NCBI GenBank assembly: GCA_026387915.1
Contig: JAPLKS010000017.1
Span: 310,001 to 374,000, forward strand
DNA from: Gemmatimonadota bacterium
GTDB taxonomy: Bacteria; Gemmatimonadota; Gemmatimonadetes; Gemmatimonadales; Gemmatimonadaceae
DNA length: 64,000 nucleotides
Direction of reading: 5' to 3'
This document shows, in pieces, positions 4,401 through 14,760 of the stretch. Every line of letters starts with the position of its first letter. Within the stretch, counting starts at the first letter, position 1. Below the pieces are notes generated by a model. It was not told the origin of the DNA. It saw nothing but the letters and a program-made list of their open reading frames with translations, and searched no databases. A program made the translations under genes and the position numbers.

Positions 4401-5148
4401 TTTGGTGTTGCACGGCGAGAACAACCTGAAGGGATGGGGGCAGCCGGCGACGCCGGATAATCAGCTGCTGTACGTGCGTGGCTACGACCCGACGGCGCAG
4501 CGCTTCAAGTACGAAGTCAACCAGCGCTTTGGCAACACCAGCCCGGCCACCAACGCCTTCCGCCAGCCGGTGGTGGTGACGGCGATGATGCGCTTTGATC
4601 TTGGCCCGGCTCGCGAAAAACAACAGTTGGTGTCGCAGCTCAATGTTGGCCGCCGTTCGGCGGGGAACAAGATGAGCGAGCAGATTCTGAAAATGGTCTA
4701 TGCGAATGCCGGCGGTCTCGTCAATCCAATGGCCACCATGCTACGCCAGGCGGATTCCCTGGGCCTCACGCAGAAGCAGGCCGACAGCCTCGCGACACTC
4801 AATCGTTGGTACACGGTGCGCCTCGACTCCATCTGGAGCCCGGCCGCCAAGTTGCTCGCTGCACTTCCGGACAAGTACGACGAAGATGAGGCGTACCGCG
4901 TGTACCGTCGGGCCCGCGAGGGAACGGTGGATGTGCTCACCAAGCTCGCCCCAGGTACCAAGGGACTTCTATCGCCGGAACAGCGCCGCAAGCTGCCAGC
5001 CATCGTGGCCAGTTATCTTGAACCGCGGTACCTCGCGGCGATCCGCAGCGGCACGGCGGGCGCTGGCGGCAGCGCGTTCGGCGGCGGTGGCGGCATGGGC
5101 ATGCCCGTCGGCGACGGCGGCGAACGCCACTTCATCATCATGCGCTGA
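1417..5148 (+). CDS. TonB-dependent receptor with N-terminal carboxypeptidase-like domain and C-terminal LTxxQ tail
   Basis: Outer-membrane receptor of about 1243 residues. GTG at 1417 is chosen because it directly precedes a signal peptide (RRLQFLLCVLFLIAAKPLAAQ). An in-frame TTG at 1246 would put about 57 atypical residues before it. After the signal come a carboxypeptidase regulatory-like/CarbopepD_reg domain (VIRGKVINQDSVPIEGVRV), a plug-like region (LGNLAAMAASLPGVTLIPG) and a long beta barrel that appears to end near residue 1060 (MMRFDLG). Unusually, about 180 residues follow the barrel. They contain LTQKQ (about 1117) and LSPEQRRKL (about 1185), resembling the paired LTxxQ motifs of Spy/CpxP proteins, and a Gly-rich end. 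No ligand can be assigned. The stop is followed closely by the gene at 5196. Confidence 0.85.
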   Translation: MSLRRLQFLLCVLFLIAAKPLAAQTDVIRGKVINQDSVPIEGVRVTVTSISGAVNRQARTDKGGRFTVTFPNGEGDYFVTFNQIGYAQKRFEVKRTADQDILIADAKLSRSQELDAMRITGSRDRVDRNDANKDISGTEKAVNTSALAADQLGNLAAMAASLPGVTLIPGADGDPSGFSVLGLSADQSSTTLNGAAFGGGDLPRDAALSSSLNSSQWDVSSGGSSGGRFSVRTSGGSNFKIRSASLNLDSPALQWTDRAARALGQEYSNASLSGRFSGPVKLDESFYTFSYQLGRRSNELKTLLNTDALGLQTSGISADSVTRLTNILNQLKVPTTLGGIPSNRMSDQGLVLGTIDVAPTGSRSGTAWNLTYQGSWGKNTPVLNATGEFPAHSGDRTNWNGMVQGRHSTYFGFGVLSETQLSYSSAKNWGTPYLSLPSGSVLVNSAFADGTNGVKFVQFGGSAFLNASSRNGTAQFSNLLSWFSENNKHRIKLTTELRRDDYTQDQTTNLLGSFSFNSLADVQAGRPAVFSRNLSPRQREGAQYIGGIALGDSYRRTSDLQIQYGLRVDGNQYEGIPVRNTKLEETFGVRNDYVPNKVYLSPRVGFSWTYGTAQQIGGFEGAMRGPRAVVRGGIGVFQNTPQTQLVGNAIDNTGLPSAVQQVTCMGPAAPLPNWDAYSTSLANIPSACVDGSAGTVFANSAPNVTLFSKDYAAQRALRSVLSWSGSILNNTFQATFQGTYSRNMNQTGAGVDLNFSPVQRFALASEAGRPVYVQPTSIVPTSGAIASRDARVTSLYNRVSEMRSDLTSESQQLQASFSPVTFNTSWSWNLAYVYSNFREQYRGFSSTAGNPLDVTWGRSSMDAHHQVTYTVGYNFFDAVRVSWNGRVQSGSPFTPTIAGDVNGDGYSNDRAFIYNPATAPDPTVASAMRSLLAKSSANVRNCLQGQLGRIADRNSCEGPWTTTANMSISFNPLKLGLPQRATLSLAINNPLGAADLVLHGENNLKGWGQPATPDNQLLYVRGYDPTAQRFKYEVNQRFGNTSPATNAFRQPVVVTAMMRFDLGPAREKQQLVSQLNVGRRSAGNKMSEQILKMVYANAGGLVNPMATMLRQADSLGLTQKQADSLATLNRWYTVRLDSIWSPAAKLLAALPDKYDEDEAYRVYRRAREGTVDVLTKLAPGTKGLLSPEQRRKLPAIVASYLEPRYLAAIRSGTAGAGGSAFGGGGGMGMPVGDGGERHFIIMR

Positions 5149-5195
5149 TGCGCTCGCAAAACAACCATTACGACCACCGTTCAACCAACACTGCC

Positions 5196-6602
5196 ATGCC
5201 TCTCGCTCGAACGTTCTTTGCCACCGTCGCCCTCGCGGGCGCCCTCGGGGCCCAGCAGCCGGTGCGCGAGCGTCCGCTCGGTCCGGTCACGCACGTGTCA
5301 AAGGAACTGCTGGGCGCGGTGTCGCAGGCGCGTCAGCTTCCCGATGGCCGCGTCATCATCAACGACTTGAATGGGCGTAAGGTGGTGCTGTTCGACACGA
5401 CGCTTGCCTCGTACGCGGTGATCGCCGACACGACCAGCGCCACCGCCAACGCGTACAGCTCGCGTGCGGGCGGCCTCATTCCGTGGAAGGGTGACACCAC
5501 GCTGTTCGTCGACCCGCAGTCGCTTTCTATGCTCGTACTCGACGGTCAGGGGAAGATTGCCCGCGTGATGAGTGTGCCGCGCGCCAATGAGGCGGGGCTG
5601 CTGATCGGTGGGCCCAATGGCACGCCGGGCACCGACCGCGACGGCCGTCTGCTGTTTCGCGGCATGCCGGCGTTCCGCATGTCGATGCCCGCGGCCGGGG
5701 GCGATCACAATCACAGTAGTGGTGCCACGCCGCAGCCCACGATGCCAGACTCGGCACCGCTAATGCGCATGGATTTGGCGACGCGTAAGGTGGACACGCT
5801 CGCGTATCTGAAGGTTCCGAAGTCAAGCGTGTTAGTGTCGCGCGACGATGCCGGCCGTGTGTCGGTGAACGTGACGATGAACCCGTTGCCAACGGTTGAC
5901 GACTGGGCAATCCTTTCCGACGGATCGGTGGCCGTGTTGCGCGGGCAGGACTACCACATCGAGTGGACGCGTCCGGATGGCACCAAGGCGACGACGCCCA
6001 AGGTGCCGTTCGATTGGAAGCGGATGACGGAAGAGGACAAGATCGCATTCCTCGACTCGGCGCGCGTCGCGATGGAAAAGGTTCGCTCGGCGGCGATGTC
6101 GGGCAATGCCGGTGCGATGCAGGCGGGTGCCGCGGCAGTGATGGGCGGCGGCGTTGCGGGACTCGGAGGAGGCGGGCAGCAGCTGCGTGTGCAGATCAGC
6201 GGTGACGGTCCGATGCCGCCGATGCGCGGCGGCGGCGAAGGCGGTCGTGGCGGTGCGGACACGCATACCGATGGCCGGGGCGGCGGCGAAGGCGGCCGCG
6301 GTGGCTTTGGTGGGGTCAATGTGCCGCCGATCAACATGGTCTCCCCGAGCGAACTGCCCGACTACGCACCGCCGTTCCAGGCCGGTTCGGCGCGCGGTGA
6401 TCTCGACGGCAATATGTGGGTGCGCACCACCAAGGTGGTGCAGGGCGGCTCCGTGTACGATGTGATCAACGCCAAGGGTGAGTTGATCGATCGCGTGCTG
6501 ATGCCTGCGGGTCGCGTGATTGCCGGCTTTGGTCACGGCGTGGTGTACATGGGCGTCCGCGATGGCGCTGGCGTACGTCTCGAAGTGGCGAAGATGAAGT
6601 GA
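5196..6602 (+). CDS. Secreted propeller-like protein with Gly/Arg-rich insert
   Basis: About 468 residues. ATG at 5196 starts a clear signal peptide (MPLARTFFATVALAGALGAQQ); an ATG at 5148, overlapping the upstream stop, would add 16 non-signal residues. The mature part has repeated beta-strand stretches (LPDGRVIINDLNGRKVVLFD, WAILSDGSVAVLRGQDYHIE), like a six-bladed beta-propeller or NHL-type fold. Around residues 315-385 is a low-complexity Gly/Arg-rich insert (GGGEGGRGG repeated). The last section (YAPPFQAGSARGDLDGNMWV) resembles another blade. It lies 47 bp after the TonB receptor and is probably cotranscribed, so a role as a surface or periplasmic partner is possible. No enzyme motif is seen and the function is unknown. 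Confidence 0.7.
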   Translation: MPLARTFFATVALAGALGAQQPVRERPLGPVTHVSKELLGAVSQARQLPDGRVIINDLNGRKVVLFDTTLASYAVIADTTSATANAYSSRAGGLIPWKGDTTLFVDPQSLSMLVLDGQGKIARVMSVPRANEAGLLIGGPNGTPGTDRDGRLLFRGMPAFRMSMPAAGGDHNHSSGATPQPTMPDSAPLMRMDLATRKVDTLAYLKVPKSSVLVSRDDAGRVSVNVTMNPLPTVDDWAILSDGSVAVLRGQDYHIEWTRPDGTKATTPKVPFDWKRMTEEDKIAFLDSARVAMEKVRSAAMSGNAGAMQAGAAAVMGGGVAGLGGGGQQLRVQISGDGPMPPMRGGGEGGRGGADTHTDGRGGGEGGRGGFGGVNVPPINMVSPSELPDYAPPFQAGSARGDLDGNMWVRTTKVVQGGSVYDVINAKGELIDRVLMPAGRVIAGFGHGVVYMGVRDGAGVRLEVAKMK

Positions 6603-6616
6603 GGCGCGCGCGGCGC

Positions 6617-9130
6617 CTACGAACCGTCCGACCGCTCGTGGTCGGACGGTTCGTCTTTTCCGGTTAGAGCGGCACTCACGATACGAATGAAGTTCTTGGC
6701 GTTGAACGGCTTGGCGAGAATCGCTTTCACGGCCGGATCCAGCGGTGACTGATCGATCCCCTCAGCCGCAAAGCCGGTCACGACGATGATCGGCGTGGCG
6801 GGTCGCAACGTCACGAAGCGCTCAATCACGTCGTGGCCCGACACATCGGGCATCATCATGTCGGTCACCAGAATGTCGATCGCGAGCTCCGGCTGCGCGG
6901 CGAGCGCAATGGCTTCGGCTCCGCCCCCCGCTTCGATGACCGCATAGCCGGCGCGCTCGAGCATACGTCGGCTGACGCGACGGACACCCGTTTCGTCGTC
7001 CACGAGCAGAACCGTCCCGCGGCGGGGGGCGGCGGACGGCGCCGTCGGAGCCTCCAGAATAGTCTGCGCGGGGGCAGTCGTGCGTGGCAGGTGCAGCGAA
7101 ACGGTGGTGCCACGGCCCTCGGTGCTTTCTACGGCCACACGCCCGCTCGCGCGCCGCACAATTGTGTCGACCATCGCGAGACCGAGCCCGGTGCCCATTC
7201 CGGGGGCCTTCGTCGTGAAGAATGGTTCGAAGATGTGATGCAGCGACTCCGCCGGAATACCAGTCCCGTCGTCGTGCACGCGAATCACGACCACGTCGCG
7301 ATCGGCGTCAAACAGTTCAGCGACCGCAGCAATTCGGATCACGCCCCCCTTGGGCATGGCGTCGCGTGCGTTGATGACGAGGTTGAGCAAGACCTGCTCG
7401 AACTGTGACCGATCGAACAGCACGTGGGCGTCAGGGGCGTTCAGCGCGAGATCGAGTCTGATGTTTTGGGGAAGGGTTCGCACGAGCGCGGGCGCGAGCG
7501 CGTCGATGGTCGCGGTCACGGGAAGCTGCACCGCCTGAATGACATGCGAGCCAGTGAAGCCGAGGAGCTGGCGCGTGATTCCCGCGCCGCGATCAGCCGC
7601 TGCTCGTATGGCTGCAATGTCGGCGCTCGCGCTCGGATCGTCGGCGAGGTCGGTCGCGAGCAACTCGGCGTGCCCAGAGATCATCGCCAGCAGGTTGTTG
7701 AAGGCGTGCGCAATGCGTCCCGCAATATCGTGGAGCGTCGTGAGCTTGGCAGCGTGTCGGAGCCGCCCTTCCAACGCGTGTTCGGCCGCGAGGTCGCGCC
7801 CGTTGATGACAAAGCCGCCGACGCTGGGATCATTGCGGCGGTCTTCGACCCGTAGTTCGACCTCCATCCACCCGTCGGCGCCGCGCACTCGGCACTGCCG
7901 AGACGGCGCGCGCTCGTCGGACTCAGAATGGACGAGCCAGCGCAGCGTGAACGCGCGATCGTCGGGATGCACGAGGTCGGCAAACGGCGCGACGCGTTCG
8001 GCCGCGGAGAGAAACCCGAGTGACGGGCTCACCCAACGAAGCCGGAGTTGCGGATCGATGACGATGATGTAGTCGCTTGCATTGGCGAGTAAGGTCTGGA
8101 AACGCCTCGTCAGGGCGACATGGGTTTGCGACAGGCTTTGGTTTGCCGTGAGTTCCGCGCGCTGGCGAACGAGGAGGAGCAGCGTGAGCAGCGTCGCCAC
8201 AATGATGATGCCGCGCGTATCCGCGTCACCCGTCAGGACGACCTTCACCAGCAGTGTGTAGGTGAATGCCACCACCAACGTCGGCGCGATGCCACTGCGG
8301 TACGTGCCATCCCACCGCTCACCGTTCCCGACCCTCGGACGCCGACCGGCGTGCCACTGATGTCGTGCGGCGGCCCATCGGAGCACCCACGTCCCGAACC
8401 AAAAGGCGTCGATGGCATCGCCGGGGCGATACGCCGTGGCATTGACCCAGGCGTAGTCGGAAAGTGTGGCAAACAGATGGGCGGCGAGATTAATCGATAT
8501 GGCGGTGCGTAAGATTCGGCTGCGTGATCGGATAAGCGCGGCGGCGGCGCCGAGGTAGACCGCCCAGTCGCCGATGATATTGACGACGTCCACCGCACGG
8601 ATCGGTACATTCGTGCGCTCGAGCAGCAGGCGAACGGAAAAGTGCCACGAGAGGGTTACGCCGCCGACGACAAGCAATGCAATGTCGAGCAAGACGCGCG
8701 GATCGCGCGCAGACACGCGCGGATCCCGCGGGACCAAGCGATACCCCACGATCGCAAAGGGCACATATGCGAGGGCGAGCCAATCGCTCCACTCGGGCGT
8801 TACCGCCTGATGATGGAGAGCCGCCCACGTGGTCCACGTGCCACCACTGACGAAGAGCATCCCAGACGCCGCCGCGAGCCACTGCCAGACGCGGCGCGTG
8901 GCCGGATCGAGGTTGGGATCGTCCGCGTTCTGCCATTGGGCGACGATCGTGAACACGGCCGCGCCAAAGAACGCAACGTTCACGATGTCCCGCGCGACAG
9001 GCGGCAGAACCGCCATCATCCGCAACGCCAGAAGATACAAGGCGGCGAAGGCGAGGAATGCTTGGTCGCCCAACGTCAGCGAAAACCCAGCTGACGGTGT
9101 CCGCGCCGAGGCGGTGGTGGAGCCGTTCAT
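6617..9130 (-). CDS. Membrane PAS hybrid histidine kinase with His-Ala H-box
   Basis: 837 residues. The first ~330 contain about nine or ten hydrophobic segments (an uncharacterised membrane sensor region). A PAS domain follows (about 345-450, ending VINGRDL), then a HisKA-type dimerisation helix, HATPase_c and a C-terminal receiver with phospho-acceptor Asp near residue 756 (VTDMMMPD). The ATPase looks intact: N-box LVINARDAM, G1 DDGTGIP, G2 GMGTGLGLAM. The H-box reads RIAHAFNNLL: His475 is followed by Ala476 where the family normally has Asp or Glu, the residue that activates the His. It overlaps by 4 bp with the upstream paralogous kinase-like gene and is probably translationally coupled to it. 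The + strand terminator at 6619-6654 lies within its final codons. Confidence 0.9.
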   Translation of the reverse strand: MNGSTTASARTPSAGFSLTLGDQAFLAFAALYLLALRMMAVLPPVARDIVNVAFFGAAVFTIVAQWQNADDPNLDPATRRVWQWLAAASGMLFVSGGTWTTWAALHHQAVTPEWSDWLALAYVPFAIVGYRLVPRDPRVSARDPRVLLDIALLVVGGVTLSWHFSVRLLLERTNVPIRAVDVVNIIGDWAVYLGAAAALIRSRSRILRTAISINLAAHLFATLSDYAWVNATAYRPGDAIDAFWFGTWVLRWAAARHQWHAGRRPRVGNGERWDGTYRSGIAPTLVVAFTYTLLVKVVLTGDADTRGIIIVATLLTLLLLVRQRAELTANQSLSQTHVALTRRFQTLLANASDYIIVIDPQLRLRWVSPSLGFLSAAERVAPFADLVHPDDRAFTLRWLVHSESDERAPSRQCRVRGADGWMEVELRVEDRRNDPSVGGFVINGRDLAAEHALEGRLRHAAKLTTLHDIAGRIAHAFNNLLAMISGHAELLATDLADDPSASADIAAIRAAADRGAGITRQLLGFTGSHVIQAVQLPVTATIDALAPALVRTLPQNIRLDLALNAPDAHVLFDRSQFEQVLLNLVINARDAMPKGGVIRIAAVAELFDADRDVVVIRVHDDGTGIPAESLHHIFEPFFTTKAPGMGTGLGLAMVDTIVRRASGRVAVESTEGRGTTVSLHLPRTTAPAQTILEAPTAPSAAPRRGTVLLVDDETGVRRVSRRMLERAGYAVIEAGGGAEAIALAAQPELAIDILVTDMMMPDVSGHDVIERFVTLRPATPIIVVTGFAAEGIDQSPLDPAVKAILAKPFNAKNFIRIVSAALTGKDEPSDHERSDGS
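6619..6654 (+). terminator. Rho-independent terminator overlapping the end of the convergent kinase gene
   Basis: A perfect 15-bp stem (ACGAACCGTCCGACC with GGTCGGACGGTTCGT), loop GCTCGT, is followed on the + strand by CTTTTC. It ends the TonB receptor/propeller transcription unit. The stem also encodes the last codons of the leftward kinase, whose stop is at 6617-6619. Confidence 0.8.
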
Positions 9131-11208
9131 CGCGCGGCACTCGGCAGGAAGAGCGTCACACTCGATCCGTTCGCGCGGCTCTTGGCCTCGATGGCTCCGC
9201 CCGCTTCGCGCACGGCGGCGTGCACCAGCACCGTGCTGAGATCGTCTGGTGCGTTCTCCCAGTTGCCCGTGGATGGGCCGGTCACTTCGAGTGTGTGTGC
9301 CGACGACGTGGCAATGCGCACCGCCACGTAGGGCCCCGCCGCGAGGTTCAGTGATTCGGCGTGCGCGCCACCAAGCTCAACCGCATCAATCGACACGACA
9401 AACGGAACGAGCGGTCCGTGTTGCGCCACCTGATCGTTGAGGACCGCATCCAGTGCGTTGCGGAGCGACGGCACATCCGATCGGACCCCAAGGCGGTCTA
9501 TGCCGCTGGTGACATCGACGGCCGCGCCGAGCCGGGTGATACGTTCGCGCAGGAACTGCTCGATGTTCACCACTTCGCGTTGGACCGCTTTACGACGGCT
9601 GAGGCTCAGGAGTCCGCTCGTGAGCACGTTCGCTCTCCGGGCCGCTGTCCCGATGGCCATTAGGTCGGCGTGCGCCTCCCGTCGTGCGGCGGGAAGATCG
9701 TTGATGAGCAGTTCCACATGCGACGCAATCACCATCAGGAAATTATTGAGATCGTGCGCGAGGCCGCCGGCAAAAACTCCGAGTGCTTCGACGTCGCGTG
9801 ACGCACGCAGTTGCGTCGCCATTTGCAATTCACGCGACACGTCATGCCCGTTGATGACCACCGCGCCGACGTTCGGTTCGTGGCGCAGGTCGCGCAGTCG
9901 TAGCGCGGCCTCCCGCCATTCACCGTTTGATGCGCGCATACGCACGGTTCGCTCGATCGGTTCGAAATGTGGCGACTGAAGAATGGCCACAAATTTTGTC
10001 CGATCGTCAGGGTGCAGGAGGTCCGAGAATGACGACGCTGCGTCGGTGGACTTCGCGCCAAGAAACTGTGCGGTGGCTGGGCTGGCGTAGACGACACGAC
10101 CCTCGTTGTCCACGAGCGCGAGCACGTCATATGCGTGCTGGAGTACCGCGCTGAACCAGTGGTGTTCGTCCTCCTGCTTGCGGAGCAGTCGATCGTGCTC
10201 TTGCAGTTCCACGACTTGCCTCGCGACCACCAAGATGGCCAGTCCCACGCTGCTATACAGAAATACGACGTCGTCCGCTCGCCCTGGCGACGCGAGCGCG
10301 TACAGCATCCCGACGGGGGCCGCAGCCACGAGCGCCGTGGGAAGAAATCCGCTACGATACCCACGCTCATCCCCCGCGGCGCTCTGCGGCGATGTGGCGA
10401 GGAGGTAGAGCGACCACCGGGCCGAAACCCATCGGATGGCCCATGAGGCGCACCAAATGCCGGAGACGATGCCCGCCGGCGCATGGGACGCGACGGCTGG
10501 AGACGCGTGCCATAGTTCCGGCACGAGCTGAAGGACGTGTGCCGCGAGCAACGCGACCGCGACGTCTCGCGTGAGTGCCGATCCGCTCCGGAGGTAGAGG
10601 ACGGCAGCGAAGACGACCGACAGCGCATCGCCCGCGACGACGGATAGGTCGTTCAGAGGTTCAGTGGGCGTACTCAGGTAGGTGTTCGCCGCGACCGCCC
10701 ACATCACCAATCCACCGGTCACAATGGCGGCATCGATGGCGAATCGCGGGCGGTCAGCGCGGCGCCACGCGGCGGCGGGAAACACGAGCAGCGCCGTGAT
10801 TCCGGAAAATTGGAATATCCACGTGAGTGCGATGATCCACGCGGGGGTCGTGAACGTGCCAAACGTGAGTGACGCCTGCCAGAAGTGTCGGGCCAGCATC
10901 TGCCCCAGCGACGCGACGGCGAGCATCCGCGTAACTGACGCGACGGCGAGGAGTCGCCACGCAAGGCGCTCGCGCAGGTTATCTCGCATGGCGCCCATGC
11001 GCCACTGGAGCGCGCCAACGCCGAGGCCCACCAAGACGTGGGGTATGCTATCGATGACGCCGGTCTGTTCGCTTCCCCTCCAGCCGAACGCGACCCATCC
11101 CACATAGAGCAACCCAAGCAGGACGGCGACGGAGTCGGTCGCGCGCCAGTGTGCATCGCGCGGATCCGCACGAGTGCAGTCGGCCTGGGGGGGCGGCACC
11201 GCCAGCAT
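9127..11208 (-). CDS. Membrane PAS kinase-like protein with degenerate ATPase domain (pseudokinase)
   Basis: 693 residues, paralogous to the downstream kinase along most of its length: a multi-helix membrane region, the same RWxxAR...YRSG linker, a PAS domain (FSDLLHPDDR, VVINGHDVS) and a dimerisation helix with a normal H-box (GLAHDLNNFL, His485-Asp486). The ATP-binding domain is degenerate. The N-box is LDAVLNDQVAQHG, the G1 position reads RIATSSAHTL with no DxGxG, and the G2 position (DLSTVLVHAAVREAGG) lacks the GxGLGL glycines. There is no receiver domain. It should still dimerise and accept phosphate but probably cannot bind ATP. It starts 18 bp after the VPS10 gene and overlaps the next kinase by 4 bp, so the three are likely one operon. 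Confidence 0.85.
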   Translation of the reverse strand: MLAVPPPQADCTRADPRDAHWRATDSVAVLLGLLYVGWVAFGWRGSEQTGVIDSIPHVLVGLGVGALQWRMGAMRDNLRERLAWRLLAVASVTRMLAVASLGQMLARHFWQASLTFGTFTTPAWIIALTWIFQFSGITALLVFPAAAWRRADRPRFAIDAAIVTGGLVMWAVAANTYLSTPTEPLNDLSVVAGDALSVVFAAVLYLRSGSALTRDVAVALLAAHVLQLVPELWHASPAVASHAPAGIVSGIWCASWAIRWVSARWSLYLLATSPQSAAGDERGYRSGFLPTALVAAAPVGMLYALASPGRADDVVFLYSSVGLAILVVARQVVELQEHDRLLRKQEDEHHWFSAVLQHAYDVLALVDNEGRVVYASPATAQFLGAKSTDAASSFSDLLHPDDRTKFVAILQSPHFEPIERTVRMRASNGEWREAALRLRDLRHEPNVGAVVINGHDVSRELQMATQLRASRDVEALGVFAGGLAHDLNNFLMVIASHVELLINDLPAARREAHADLMAIGTAARRANVLTSGLLSLSRRKAVQREVVNIEQFLRERITRLGAAVDVTSGIDRLGVRSDVPSLRNALDAVLNDQVAQHGPLVPFVVSIDAVELGGAHAESLNLAAGPYVAVRIATSSAHTLEVTGPSTGNWENAPDDLSTVLVHAAVREAGGAIEAKSRANGSSVTLFLPSAAR

Positions 11209-11226: not shown

Positions 11227-14200
11227 CTATAGAATAGTCTTGCGGGGTCGCTGGTAGATGGGCGGAAGCCCCACGTCCTGCAGCAGTTTGTTGAACGCCG
11301 CCAGTTCTGCATTCTCAAGCTGTTGCAGGCGCTGGAGCACCGCGCCAACCTTGGTCGCCAGCTCTACGGACACGTCACCGTGCTGCTTCGTCGGACCGTA
11401 GTCGCCCGACTGAATCTGCGCGTTGAGCGAGATCAGCATGTTGTAGAGGCGAATGGGCTGATCCAGCGTGCACTGGTCCACGTGACAGCTGACTTCTGTG
11501 AGTTCGTCGCGCAGCGCTTCGAAACGCACGCGCAATGGCGTGGCCGCGTCCGCGACGCGCTTGGCGAATCCCTGATCCTTGCTCTGCTCGACGCGCGCGT
11601 CAATCTGTGACTGCGTGTCCTCGATGCGGCCCACCGACTCCGCCAACTCGGTGATCTTGTTCCGCACACGGAGCGCGGCCTGAAACTGTGCGATGAGGTC
11701 GGCGGCGGTCGTCTTCACCCGCGGATCGGCCACGACGGCGAAGGTTCGCACCAGCGAATCCGCGCCCACGATGAGTCGCACGCGATACGTGCCTGGCGGC
11801 GCCATCGGTCCGTCGAGCGTCCCTTCGTCGAGGACGGTGTTTTTGAGCGCAGTCGCGCCAGGATACCGCAGGTTCCAGGAGAAGCGATTGCTACCCGCGC
11901 GCGCACTCACCACAGAGTCGGCGGCGTCAAAGGCGAGGGAATCGCCTCGTGCGGCCAACGTGGCGCGCGTCGCGGAATCGGCCCGCGCGCTCACAGAGTC
12001 AACGGGGGGTAGTTCGCTGTCGTACGTGCGGATCACCGTCCCCGAAGCGTCGAGGAACTGTAGGTGCACCTTGTCCTTTGGCGTGTCCTTGAGCCAGTAG
12101 TCAATCGTCGCGCCGCCGCGCGGGTTTTCCCCTTCGGTGGCGCTCTGTCCGCCGCCGGTCACCCATCGCAGGGCCGGTGCCGGCTGAAAGAGATGCGCAC
12201 GCGCCGTAGTTACGCTGTCCGCCATTTGACGGAGCGACGAAATGTCGTCGAGAATCCAGAACGCGCGCCCGTGCGTTGCGGCCACGAGATCGTGACCGTG
12301 CACGGCGAGATCGCGCACGCTGACGCGCGGCAGGTTGAGCTGCAGTGGCTCCCAGTGCGCCCCGTCGTCGAGCGACACATACACGCCCGTCTCGGTGCCC
12401 GCGTACAGCAGGCCCCGTCGCACGGGGTCTTCGCGCACGGTACGCACATACGCGCCGTTCGGGAGTCCGGTGCTGATGGATGTCCAGTTGCGTCCTTCGT
12501 CCGTGGTCTTCCAGATGTACGCGTGGAAGTCGTCCTGCTGATACCGGTTGGCCGCGACATACGCCGTGGCCGCGTCAAAGTGCGAGGGTTCAATGCCCGC
12601 CGTGCGCGTAAACGCGCCATAGGCGCGCGGCGTGACGTTCGTCCAGTGCGCGCCGGCATCGGTGGAGATGTTCACCAGGCCGTCGTCACTGCCGGCCCAG
12701 AGCACGCCCTTGCGGCGCGGCGATTCTGCGAACGCGTAGATGGTGGCATACCACTCCGTGCCCGTCATGTCGCCGTGAATCGGGCCACCGGAACGCCCGA
12801 GCGTCGCGGCGTCGTGGCGCGTGAGGTCGGGCGAGATCTTCTCCCAGCTGGCGCCCTCGTTGGTGGAACGGTGCACAAACTGCGAGGTCGCGTAGAGCGT
12901 GCTCGGGTCATGCGGAGAGAGCAAAATCGGGAACGTCCACTGAAAACGATAGGGCACGTCGCGCGCGGCCCACCCATCGTAGTTGGAGAGCCACACCGAC
13001 ACGTCGCGATCCTGTCGCGTCGCACGGTCGTTGCGCGTGAGAATGCCGGTGTAGCAGCCGCCGTACGTCACGTTCGGGTCGCGCGGATCGACGGCAATCG
13101 TCGCATTCTCGCAGCCGGCCACAGAAAAGAAATCACGGATCCCAATGGCGCCGTCATCACTGCGGCTCGCAATCGAGACGGTCGAGTTGTCCTGCTGCGC
13201 GCCGTACACGCGATAGGGAAACTGCTGATCGGTGGTGACGTGATAAAACTGCGCGGTCGGTTGGTTCTGCTGCGTAGACCACGACGTGCCGCCATCGTAC
13301 GAGATGGTCGCGCCCCCGTCGTTGGCGTTGATCATCCGCTTGGGGTCCTTGGGGTCAATCCACAACTGGTGGGTGTCGCCATGCGGCACGCGCACCTGCG
13401 AGAAGGCGTGCCCGCCGTCCACCGAACGCCACACCTGCAGGTTCATGATGTAGACGGTGTTCTCGTCCACCGGGTCGGCAGTCAGCGCAGAGTAATAGAA
13501 GGGGCGGACCGCCCACTTTTGATCGCCGCTCGTCCGCTCCCACGTGGCGCCACCGTTGTCGGAGCGGAACACGCCGCCTGCGGAATCCGGCGCTTCGATG
13601 CTGGCCCAGAGGCGCTGCGGCCGCGTCGGCGAAACCGCGATGCCGATTTTACCGAGCGGCGTGCGCGGGATGCCGGCATTGAAGCTCAGTTCGCTCCACG
13701 TGTCGCCACCGTCAAGGCTTTTCCAGAGGCCACTGCGTCCGGCCCCTGCGTTCATCCCCCACGGCGTGCGCTGAAACTTCCACATTGACGCATACAAAAT
13801 GCGCGGGTTACCGGGATCCATGGCAAGGTCAATGGCGCCGGTGGAGTCATTCAGGAACAGCACCTTCGACCAATGACGGCCGCCGTCGGCGCTGCGGAAG
13901 ATGCCGCGCTCCGCGTTGGGGCCAAAAGCATGTCCCATCGCGGCCACGAACACGCGCTCTGGGTCACGCGGATCCACCACGATCTTCGAGATGTGCTGCG
14001 TGTCGCCGAGTCCGAGATGCTGCCAATGCTCACCGCCGTCGGTGGAGCGATACACGCCGGTGCCGTAGGTGAGATCTTCGCGCAACTGCGCCTCACCGGT
14101 CCCCACATAGATGACGTTGTGATCCGACGGAGCGAGCGTGACCGCTCCCACCGACGAAATGTCACTGCGTCCGTCGGTCACGTTGCGCCACGTTTGCCCG

Positions 14201-14511
14201 CCGTTGGCGGTCTTCCAAACGCCACCGTTCACGGCACCAAACCAGAACACGCGGGCATCGGAGGGATCGCCGGCCACCGCGACGGAACGCCCGCCGCGGA
14301 ACGGTCCTACTAAGCGCCAGCGCATGGCCTTAAATCGCGACGCGGTCGCGCCGGGATCGGTGTAGAGCGCGGCCGAGTAGCTGGTGGAGGGCGCGGTGGA
14401 AGCGGCGGTGGAAGCGGCCGCAGCTTTCGGACGCTGAGCCATGGCGATGGTGCTGCTCAGGGAGCAGGCGAGGGCCGCTACGGCGATCCGTGTCTGGAGA
14501 CGAGCATTCAT
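11227..14511 (-). CDS. Secreted VPS10/sortilin-type BNR-repeat propeller protein
   Basis: 1094 residues. ATG at 14511 precedes a signal peptide (ARLQTRIAVAALACSLSSTIAMAQ); the frame is open further upstream but without signal-like sequence. The mature protein carries roughly ten Asp-box/BNR motifs (STDGGEHW, SADGGRHW, SLDGGDTW, SDNGGATW, SYDGGTSW, STDAGAHW, SLDDGAHW and others), giving one or two large beta-propellers. A beta-sandwich-like region and a predicted helical C-terminus (about 1000-1094) follow. The family is exported and often labelled glycosyl hydrolase, but binding or scaffolding is equally possible. It is the first gene of a leftward set with the two membrane kinases, 18 bp before the first. 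It shares a 249-bp promoter region with the divergent tricorn protease gene. Confidence 0.85.
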   Translation of the reverse strand: MNARLQTRIAVAALACSLSSTIAMAQRPKAAAASTAASTAPSTSYSAALYTDPGATASRFKAMRWRLVGPFRGGRSVAVAGDPSDARVFWFGAVNGGVWKTANGGQTWRNVTDGRSDISSVGAVTLAPSDHNVIYVGTGEAQLREDLTYGTGVYRSTDGGEHWQHLGLGDTQHISKIVVDPRDPERVFVAAMGHAFGPNAERGIFRSADGGRHWSKVLFLNDSTGAIDLAMDPGNPRILYASMWKFQRTPWGMNAGAGRSGLWKSLDGGDTWSELSFNAGIPRTPLGKIGIAVSPTRPQRLWASIEAPDSAGGVFRSDNGGATWERTSGDQKWAVRPFYYSALTADPVDENTVYIMNLQVWRSVDGGHAFSQVRVPHGDTHQLWIDPKDPKRMINANDGGATISYDGGTSWSTQQNQPTAQFYHVTTDQQFPYRVYGAQQDNSTVSIASRSDDGAIGIRDFFSVAGCENATIAVDPRDPNVTYGGCYTGILTRNDRATRQDRDVSVWLSNYDGWAARDVPYRFQWTFPILLSPHDPSTLYATSQFVHRSTNEGASWEKISPDLTRHDAATLGRSGGPIHGDMTGTEWYATIYAFAESPRRKGVLWAGSDDGLVNISTDAGAHWTNVTPRAYGAFTRTAGIEPSHFDAATAYVAANRYQQDDFHAYIWKTTDEGRNWTSISTGLPNGAYVRTVREDPVRRGLLYAGTETGVYVSLDDGAHWEPLQLNLPRVSVRDLAVHGHDLVAATHGRAFWILDDISSLRQMADSVTTARAHLFQPAPALRWVTGGGQSATEGENPRGGATIDYWLKDTPKDKVHLQFLDASGTVIRTYDSELPPVDSVSARADSATRATLAARGDSLAFDAADSVVSARAGSNRFSWNLRYPGATALKNTVLDEGTLDGPMAPPGTYRVRLIVGADSLVRTFAVVADPRVKTTAADLIAQFQAALRVRNKITELAESVGRIEDTQSQIDARVEQSKDQGFAKRVADAATPLRVRFEALRDELTEVSCHVDQCTLDQPIRLYNMLISLNAQIQSGDYGPTKQHGDVSVELATKVGAVLQRLQQLENAELAAFNKLLQDVGLPPIYQRPRKTIL

Positions 14512-14544
14512 GGGTTCGATTGGTCCGAGGAGCGCGGTCGATTC

Positions 14545-14571
14545 GGTATAGGAATGTACGGGCCACACCAA
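14545..14571 (-). promoter_or_regulatory. Possible promoter of the VPS10-kinase operon
   Basis: On the minus strand TTGGTG is followed after 15 bp by TATACC, about 35 bp before the start codon at 14511. Both hexamers are imperfect and the spacing is short, so this is tentative. Confidence 0.25.
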
Positions 14572-14688
14572 TGAGACGCGACGGGATGCGCTCCCCCAGA
14601 GAGGTTCGGCGGCGGCATGCGTACAAGTGTCGGGGTTTCGCCGACAGGCGCGGTCAATCCCCCTAGCCGTGGGGAGCGGCTGGCGCGA

Positions 14689-14697
14689 TGCTATAGG
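14689..14697 (+). promoter_or_regulatory. Extended -10 element before the tricorn gene
   Basis: TG-C-TATAGG at 14689-14697 matches the extended -10 form (TGnTATAAT), about 65 bp before the ATG at 14761. No good -35 is visible, as is allowed for extended -10 promoters. The sequence resembles the TATATAGG before the TonB receptor gene. Confidence 0.3.
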
Positions 14698-14760
14698 GAC
14701 GTCGTGCGAGCTTCCCATTCCACTCGTGTTCGCACCCAGAACCTCTTGCCCCGTCCTCCG

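Follow-up and report, generated by a model that had tools for sequence, protein, structure and literature searches.

The window analysed here is the whole stretch of DNA, 64,000 nucleotides in length, and belongs to a genome of 3.58 Mb. Two adjacent genes on its minus strand, P0002 and P0001, encode putative membrane sensor proteins with the following features.

9127-11208, minus strand: P0002, first gene of the pair, 693 aa, putative pseudokinase and phosphoacceptor subunit
10213-11142, minus strand: membrane region of P0002, residues 23-332, with about 10 hydrophobic segments
9595-9819, minus strand: DHp domain of P0002, residues 464-538
9751-9756, minus strand: His485-Asp486 of P0002, invariant in 10/10 orthologues
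9139-9546, minus strand: degenerate ATPase-like region of P0002, residues 555-690
9127-9130, minus strand: ATGA stop-start overlap of P0002 and P0001, 4 bp
6617-9130, minus strand: P0001, second gene of the pair, 837 aa, putative catalytic subunit
8168-9061, minus strand: membrane region of P0001, residues 24-321, with at least 8 hydrophobic segments
7550-7774, minus strand: DHp domain of P0001, residues 453-527
7703-7708, minus strand: His475-Ala476 of P0001, codons CAC GCC
7079-7414, minus strand: HATPase_c domain of P0001, every box invariant within the kinase-partner clade (P0001 and its orthologues)
6680-7012, minus strand: receiver domain of P0001, with the phosphoacceptor D757, T785 and K807 invariant

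Both proteins run from an N-terminal multi-helix membrane region through a PAS domain to a HisKA-type DHp domain, and they are homologous over nearly their full length, the receiver excepted, at 29-31 % identity (BLASTP and MAFFT). An earlier sequence-only reading of the locus had described adjacent genes overlapping by 4 bp and alike across the membrane region, PAS domain and DHp; the coordinates and the minus strand are correct, the shared bases are ATGA, and the likeness is borne out by an hhalign probability of 100 (E-value 3e-83) over 654 columns, which include the C-terminal region. The membrane regions are homologous by profile-profile alignment. P0001 has matches to HATPase_c (E-value 6.8e-26) and Response_reg (E-value 3.3e-19) and carries an N-box (NLVINARDAM), a G1 box (DDGTG), an F-box (FEPFFTTK) and a G2 box (GTGLGL), and HisKA, HATPase_c and Response_reg were matched in 9/9 of its orthologues. 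Its full set of ATP boxes, its receiver and the Ala476 (GCC) that follows His475, all of which had been claimed from the letters, are confirmed by these domain matches and by the codons. The best-scoring models for the DHp, ATPase and receiver domains of P0001 taken together are those of CckA (NF046020, E-value 4.7e-80; also PDB 5IDJ).

P0002 was matched to HisKA (E-value 4e-4), and a domain search found neither HATPase_c nor a receiver in it; the HATPase_c match was likewise absent in 8/8 of the P0002 orthologues checked. The C-terminal region of P0002 can be aligned to the ATPase domain despite its changed ATP-binding residues. N583, N587, D590, D620, F637, K641 and G646 (P0001 numbering) are replaced or missing in the P0002 orthologues and are kept by the kinase partner and by the single homologues, and the ATP boxes are lost in all eight P0002 orthologues with complete genes. 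The proposal that P0002 keeps His485-Asp486 without N, G1 and G2 boxes thus stands, with the HATPase_c match absent and the ATP-site residues gone.

The distribution of the pair was surveyed in 179 genomes of the Gemmatimonadaceae, which are soil bacteria, queried with P0002 and with P0001. The P0002 query returned ten orthologues and one single full kinase (G074). The orthologues returned by the P0001 query, with scores of at least 442 bits, came from the identical ten genomes, all other matches scoring 322 bits or less. The pair-bearing genomes (10/179) fall into six genera, neither orthologue was found in any other genome of the family, and joint occurrence among the 179 genomes was therefore 10/10. 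Eight of the ten genomes have the two genes side by side on a single contig; the G154 contig with the second gene opens with the tail of the first gene, and in G176 the two genes lie on two separate short contigs. A stop-start overlap is present at 9/9 readable junctions, as ATGA in G000, G016, G154 and G084 (ATGATG in G084), as TGATG in G017, G028, G152 and G153, and as GTGA in G165. The flanking genes are common only to close relatives, so the conserved unit is the pair itself. Beyond the family, a sample of 394 genomes from the class yielded no P0002 orthologue, and a search of genome contigs with P0002 gave only weak matches to unrelated kinases.

Next to the pair in the window, positions 5148-6602 encode a 484-aa predicted secreted protein, convergent with the pair and without a Pfam or NCBIfam match, a copy of which occurs at 67 % identity in the equivalent place in G016. 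Positions 11227-14718, on the pair's strand, encode a Sortilin/VPS10-BNR propeller protein which ends 18 bp before the P0002 start and has a 78 % identical relative near the G016 pair, with one other gene between. A membrane-PAS region similar to that of the pair occurs in two G034 proteins (L042:4188-6899 and L044:6234-9044) with a C-terminal part that is GGDEF-like (LANRALLRDR...FLDLDNF) and not kinase-like, and the sensor module therefore seems to be used with different outputs.

In all ten pairs the residue after the phosphoacceptor His is non-acidic in the catalytic partner (Ala in 9/10, Thr in G016), which keeps His475 in 10/10 orthologues, and the pseudokinase partner has His-Asp. Single homologues of this architecture combine His-Asp with intact ATP boxes in 16/16 cases. 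The covariation of the two defects suggested by the sequence-only reading accordingly holds in every pair, with neither defect in the sixteen singles, and a search of the 179 genomes for single homologues in which the defects fail to covary returned none. The dependence of HisKA kinases on the acidic residue, on which that reading had relied, is established experimentally: the residue is required for autophosphorylation and not for phosphatase activity, and mutants of CrdS, HK853, HK4262 and HK1190 lacking it are kinase-negative and phosphatase-positive (PMC3510030). The kinase-partner clade has in addition lost E464, G467, G472 and R527 along with D476, all of which are kept by the P0002 orthologues and nearly all singles; P0001 itself carries His at position 467, Arg at 472 and Gly at 527. 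The losses on both sides are thus wider than one residue, which indicates that the phosphoacceptor module is intact in P0002 and the catalytic module in P0001. As far as sequence comparison can tell, the ATPase and the competent phosphoacceptor His would sit on two different proteins.

One of the changed positions, Arg472 of P0001 (window 7715-7717), is Arg at H-3 in 10/10 kinase partners, Gly in the P0002 orthologues, and Gly or Ser in the single homologues. With Ala476 one turn of the helix away, the positive charge gained here may go together with the lost acid.

In the main tree, which was built without the H+1 column, the kinase-partner clade and the P0002 clade each have support of 100/99, and the two are joined against the singles at 100/99; an earlier tree with other outgroups agrees (93/95 for the union of the partner clades). 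The subtrees of the two partners mirror each other, with a distance-matrix correlation of 0.93 (0/5000 permutations as high), as expected from joint inheritance. From these trees the partners are read as sister clades derived from one duplication and one set of reciprocal losses. Since all ten pairs come from a single duplication, the covariation of the defects counts as one conserved event and not as ten origins. Mean pairwise identity among the kinase partners is 66 % in the DHp, 55 % in the ATPase, 53 % in the receiver and 36 % in the membrane region, and among the P0002 orthologues it is 55 % in the DHp, 35 % in the membrane region and 27.5 % in the ATPase-like region. The DHp of P0002 is therefore conserved while its ATPase-like region drifts, which argues that selection keeps the phosphoacceptor half.

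The background frequency of a non-acidic residue at this position was estimated with the motif AHx[FY]NN in 41 related genomes. Among the matches listed there were 150 sites, 142 with Asp and one with Glu; of the seven non-acidic sites among them three are the kinase partner and the rest carry R, Q, G or F, the R-bearing site lying outside any kinase frame. The missing acid of the kinase partner is thus no chance feature. The narrower motif AH[AT][FY]NN occurs in 12/288 genomes of the order, namely the ten pair genomes, one with a TPR protein and one with an unrelated kinase. Matches set aside on inspection were the TPR protein, which is not a kinase (G256), a molybdopterin oxidoreductase, also not a kinase (G289), a site without a kinase frame (G451), and the AHAFNN protein of G141, an unrelated kinase whose ATPase domain is degraded. 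This last protein (L078:5344-6978) has the order receiver-DHp-ATPase-receiver and unites both defects in one chain. An unrelated unpaired histidine kinase in G001 (L080:4685-6199) has AHGFNN and an intact ATPase domain, and a hybrid kinase outside the order (G426, L087:64-1656, at the contig start) has AHAFNN with an intact ATPase domain and receiver. HWE/HisKA_2 kinases have Arg directly after the His. Absence of the acid is, in view of G001, G426 and the HWE kinases, no proof of a dead site.

Such rare single kinases with Gly or Ala after the His and an intact ATPase domain lend some weight to an arrangement in which P0002 is an allosteric pseudokinase that tunes P0001, P0001 autophosphorylates His475 despite Ala476, and His485 is no phosphate carrier. 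The invariance of His475 and Asn479 in P0001 agrees with it, as does the existence of regulatory pseudokinases and of inhibiting partners, DivL and RetS among them. It is nevertheless considered unlikely: P0002 retains His-Asp-x-Asn-Asn throughout the ten species despite the drift of its ATPase region described above, no reason is given for loss of the acid in 10/10 kinase partners against 0/16 singles, and all four HisKA kinases in which substitution by Ala was tested lost their kinase activity (PMC3510030).

The interpretation that the evidence on balance favours is a heterodimeric hybrid kinase, derived by duplication and complementary loss, in which the ATPase of P0001 would phosphorylate His485 of P0002 and the phosphoryl group would pass to the receiver of P0001. 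P0001 would be the ATP-binding catalytic subunit, with its own His475, beside Ala, a poor target, and P0002, predicted not to bind ATP and with His485-Asp486 intact, would be the phosphoacceptor subunit. The two proteins are envisaged to pair in the membrane via their DHp helices, so that the P0001 ATPase domain would act on His485 in trans, and the phosphoryl group would move from His485 to Asp757 of the receiver and onward to an unlinked HPt protein or regulator. Six Hpt matches are present in the genome, none of them adjoining the pair, and no dedicated output regulator was found next to it. The stop-start overlap may couple translation of the two genes and so balance the subunits. Each protein alone is expected to be kinase-dead, and the pair would probably work only as a mixed dimer that requires both sensors; with both sensor modules needed in one dimer, it could act as a coincidence detector.

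P0001 keeps Asn479, of the phosphatase motif, without the acid, and it is therefore predicted to act, when alone, as a phosphatase and not to be inert, a role that free P0001 would share with the kinase-negative, phosphatase-positive mutants of other HisKA kinases. The fullest form of the model, an obligate heterodimer produced by complementary degeneration in which the kinase step runs only across the dimer, two inputs must coincide and the free catalytic subunit is a phosphatase, is given an even chance. The pair could instead be a dedicated phosphatase, with P0001 kinase-negative and phosphatase-positive by virtue of Ala476 and Asn479, ATP a mere cofactor, P0002 a regulator, and the phosphate made by an unlinked kinase. 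Acid-to-Ala mutants retain full phosphatase activity (PMC3510030), and neither Asn479 nor the ATP site varies among the P0001 orthologues, in keeping with such a function. This explanation leaves the conservation of His485-Asp486 in P0002 unaccounted for and sits poorly with a receiver on P0001 itself, and it is judged very improbable.

The direction of phosphotransfer could also be reversed. The DHp of P0002 followed by a degenerate ATPase-like domain repeats the anatomy of Spo0B and ChpT, and the nearest relative of P0001 is CckA, which relays through ChpT. P0002 might then be a membrane phosphotransferase that takes phosphate from the P0001 receiver to a regulator, P0001 receiving its phosphate from a different kinase or, weakly, through its own activity. 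P0002, however, comes with a complete membrane sensor and a PAS domain, the sisters of those in P0001, as would suit a co-receptor; the loss of the acid in P0001 is left unexplained; and PF10090 (HPTransfase, the ChpT-type C-terminal domain) gave no match in eight P0002 members at an E-value of 0.1. Such a relay is held to be quite improbable.

The heterodimeric hybrid kinase has weak points of its own. His475 would be expected to drift if it were unused, and its invariance in ten species is odd if it never takes part; the proposal leaves this unexplained. His475 may serve the geometry of the phosphatase reaction or accept phosphate from the receiver. The model would break if the DHp hairpin had cis geometry, because P0001 could then not reach His485 of P0002. 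Single-chain AlphaFold models from an alignment of the two window proteins only had a mean pLDDT of 41 in the DHp/ATPase-like region of P0002 and 46 in the membrane region of P0001, a confidence too low for them to bear on the model.

Histidine kinases are normally homodimers, and very few natural heterodimers of the obligate kind came up in the literature; the literature searched held no report of this pair, nor of histidine kinase heterodimers in Gemmatimonadota. The family offers a clear evolutionary picture that leads from complete singles through one duplication to reciprocal loss, long kept in six genera. Should biochemical data bear this out, the pair would be a naturally evolved sensor of two inputs whose kinase step has to pass from one protein to another. 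It would also provide a ready test system for cis versus trans phosphorylation, for the acid beside the His, and for the sharp switching predicted of split kinases in which the phosphatase subunit is free.

Separation of the ATPase and the His on two kinases, and a heterodimer of kinase and pseudokinase, are ideas already known from CheA3/CheA4 and FasBC. In Rhodobacter sphaeroides the ATPase and the phosphoaccepting His are on separate proteins, CheA3 and CheA4, neither of which is active alone; one partner also has phosphatase function, and modelling indicates that very sharp responses are possible for a split kinase whose free subunit is the phosphatase (PMC3591291). There, whole domains are missing, the setting is a cytoplasmic chemotaxis cluster and the phosphatase is the His-carrying subunit, whereas P0001 and P0002 are membrane sensors that keep all segments of the kinase core and are split by residue changes, with the phosphatase role proposed for the catalytic subunit P0001. 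FasB and FasC of group A Streptococcus are, like P0001 and P0002, adjacent sensor kinases of which one, a proposed pseudokinase, would supply the His: the ATPase domain of FasC is dispensable, FasB is proposed to phosphorylate FasC His246, and two-hybrid data favour heterodimers over homodimers, the proposal dating from 2025 and resting on genetic and two-hybrid evidence (PMC12675982). For FasB/FasC neither a receiver on the kinase subunit nor a lost acid is described, and phosphate goes directly to the regulator FasA; P0001, by contrast, belongs to the PAS hybrid kinases of HisKA HDxxNN type, and the complementary loss extends across ten species.

Among other relatives, CckA-type hybrids resemble P0001 in DHp, ATPase domain and receiver, and P0001 differs from CckA by its membrane region, by the lack of the acid after the His and by its constant neighbour P0002. 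RetS/GacS and DivL/CckA are comparable in that a kinase-like partner modulates a kinase, RetS, which inhibits, by forming a heterodimer with GacS, and DivL, which stimulates, through direct contact with CckA. Neither is described as an obligatory phosphoacceptor, unlike the role proposed for P0002. DivL has Tyr in place of the His, a replacement absent from P0002, in which His485 is present in 10/10 orthologues. Spo0B and ChpT share with P0002 the DHp fold and the degenerate ATPase-like domain and are soluble relay proteins, whereas P0002, a PAS protein with a membrane region, is the sister of its partner and gave no PF10090 match. What sets the pair apart from these precedents is the PAS hybrid type, the receiver on the catalytic subunit, the complementary loss at the level of residues, and the clear link to complete single kinases.
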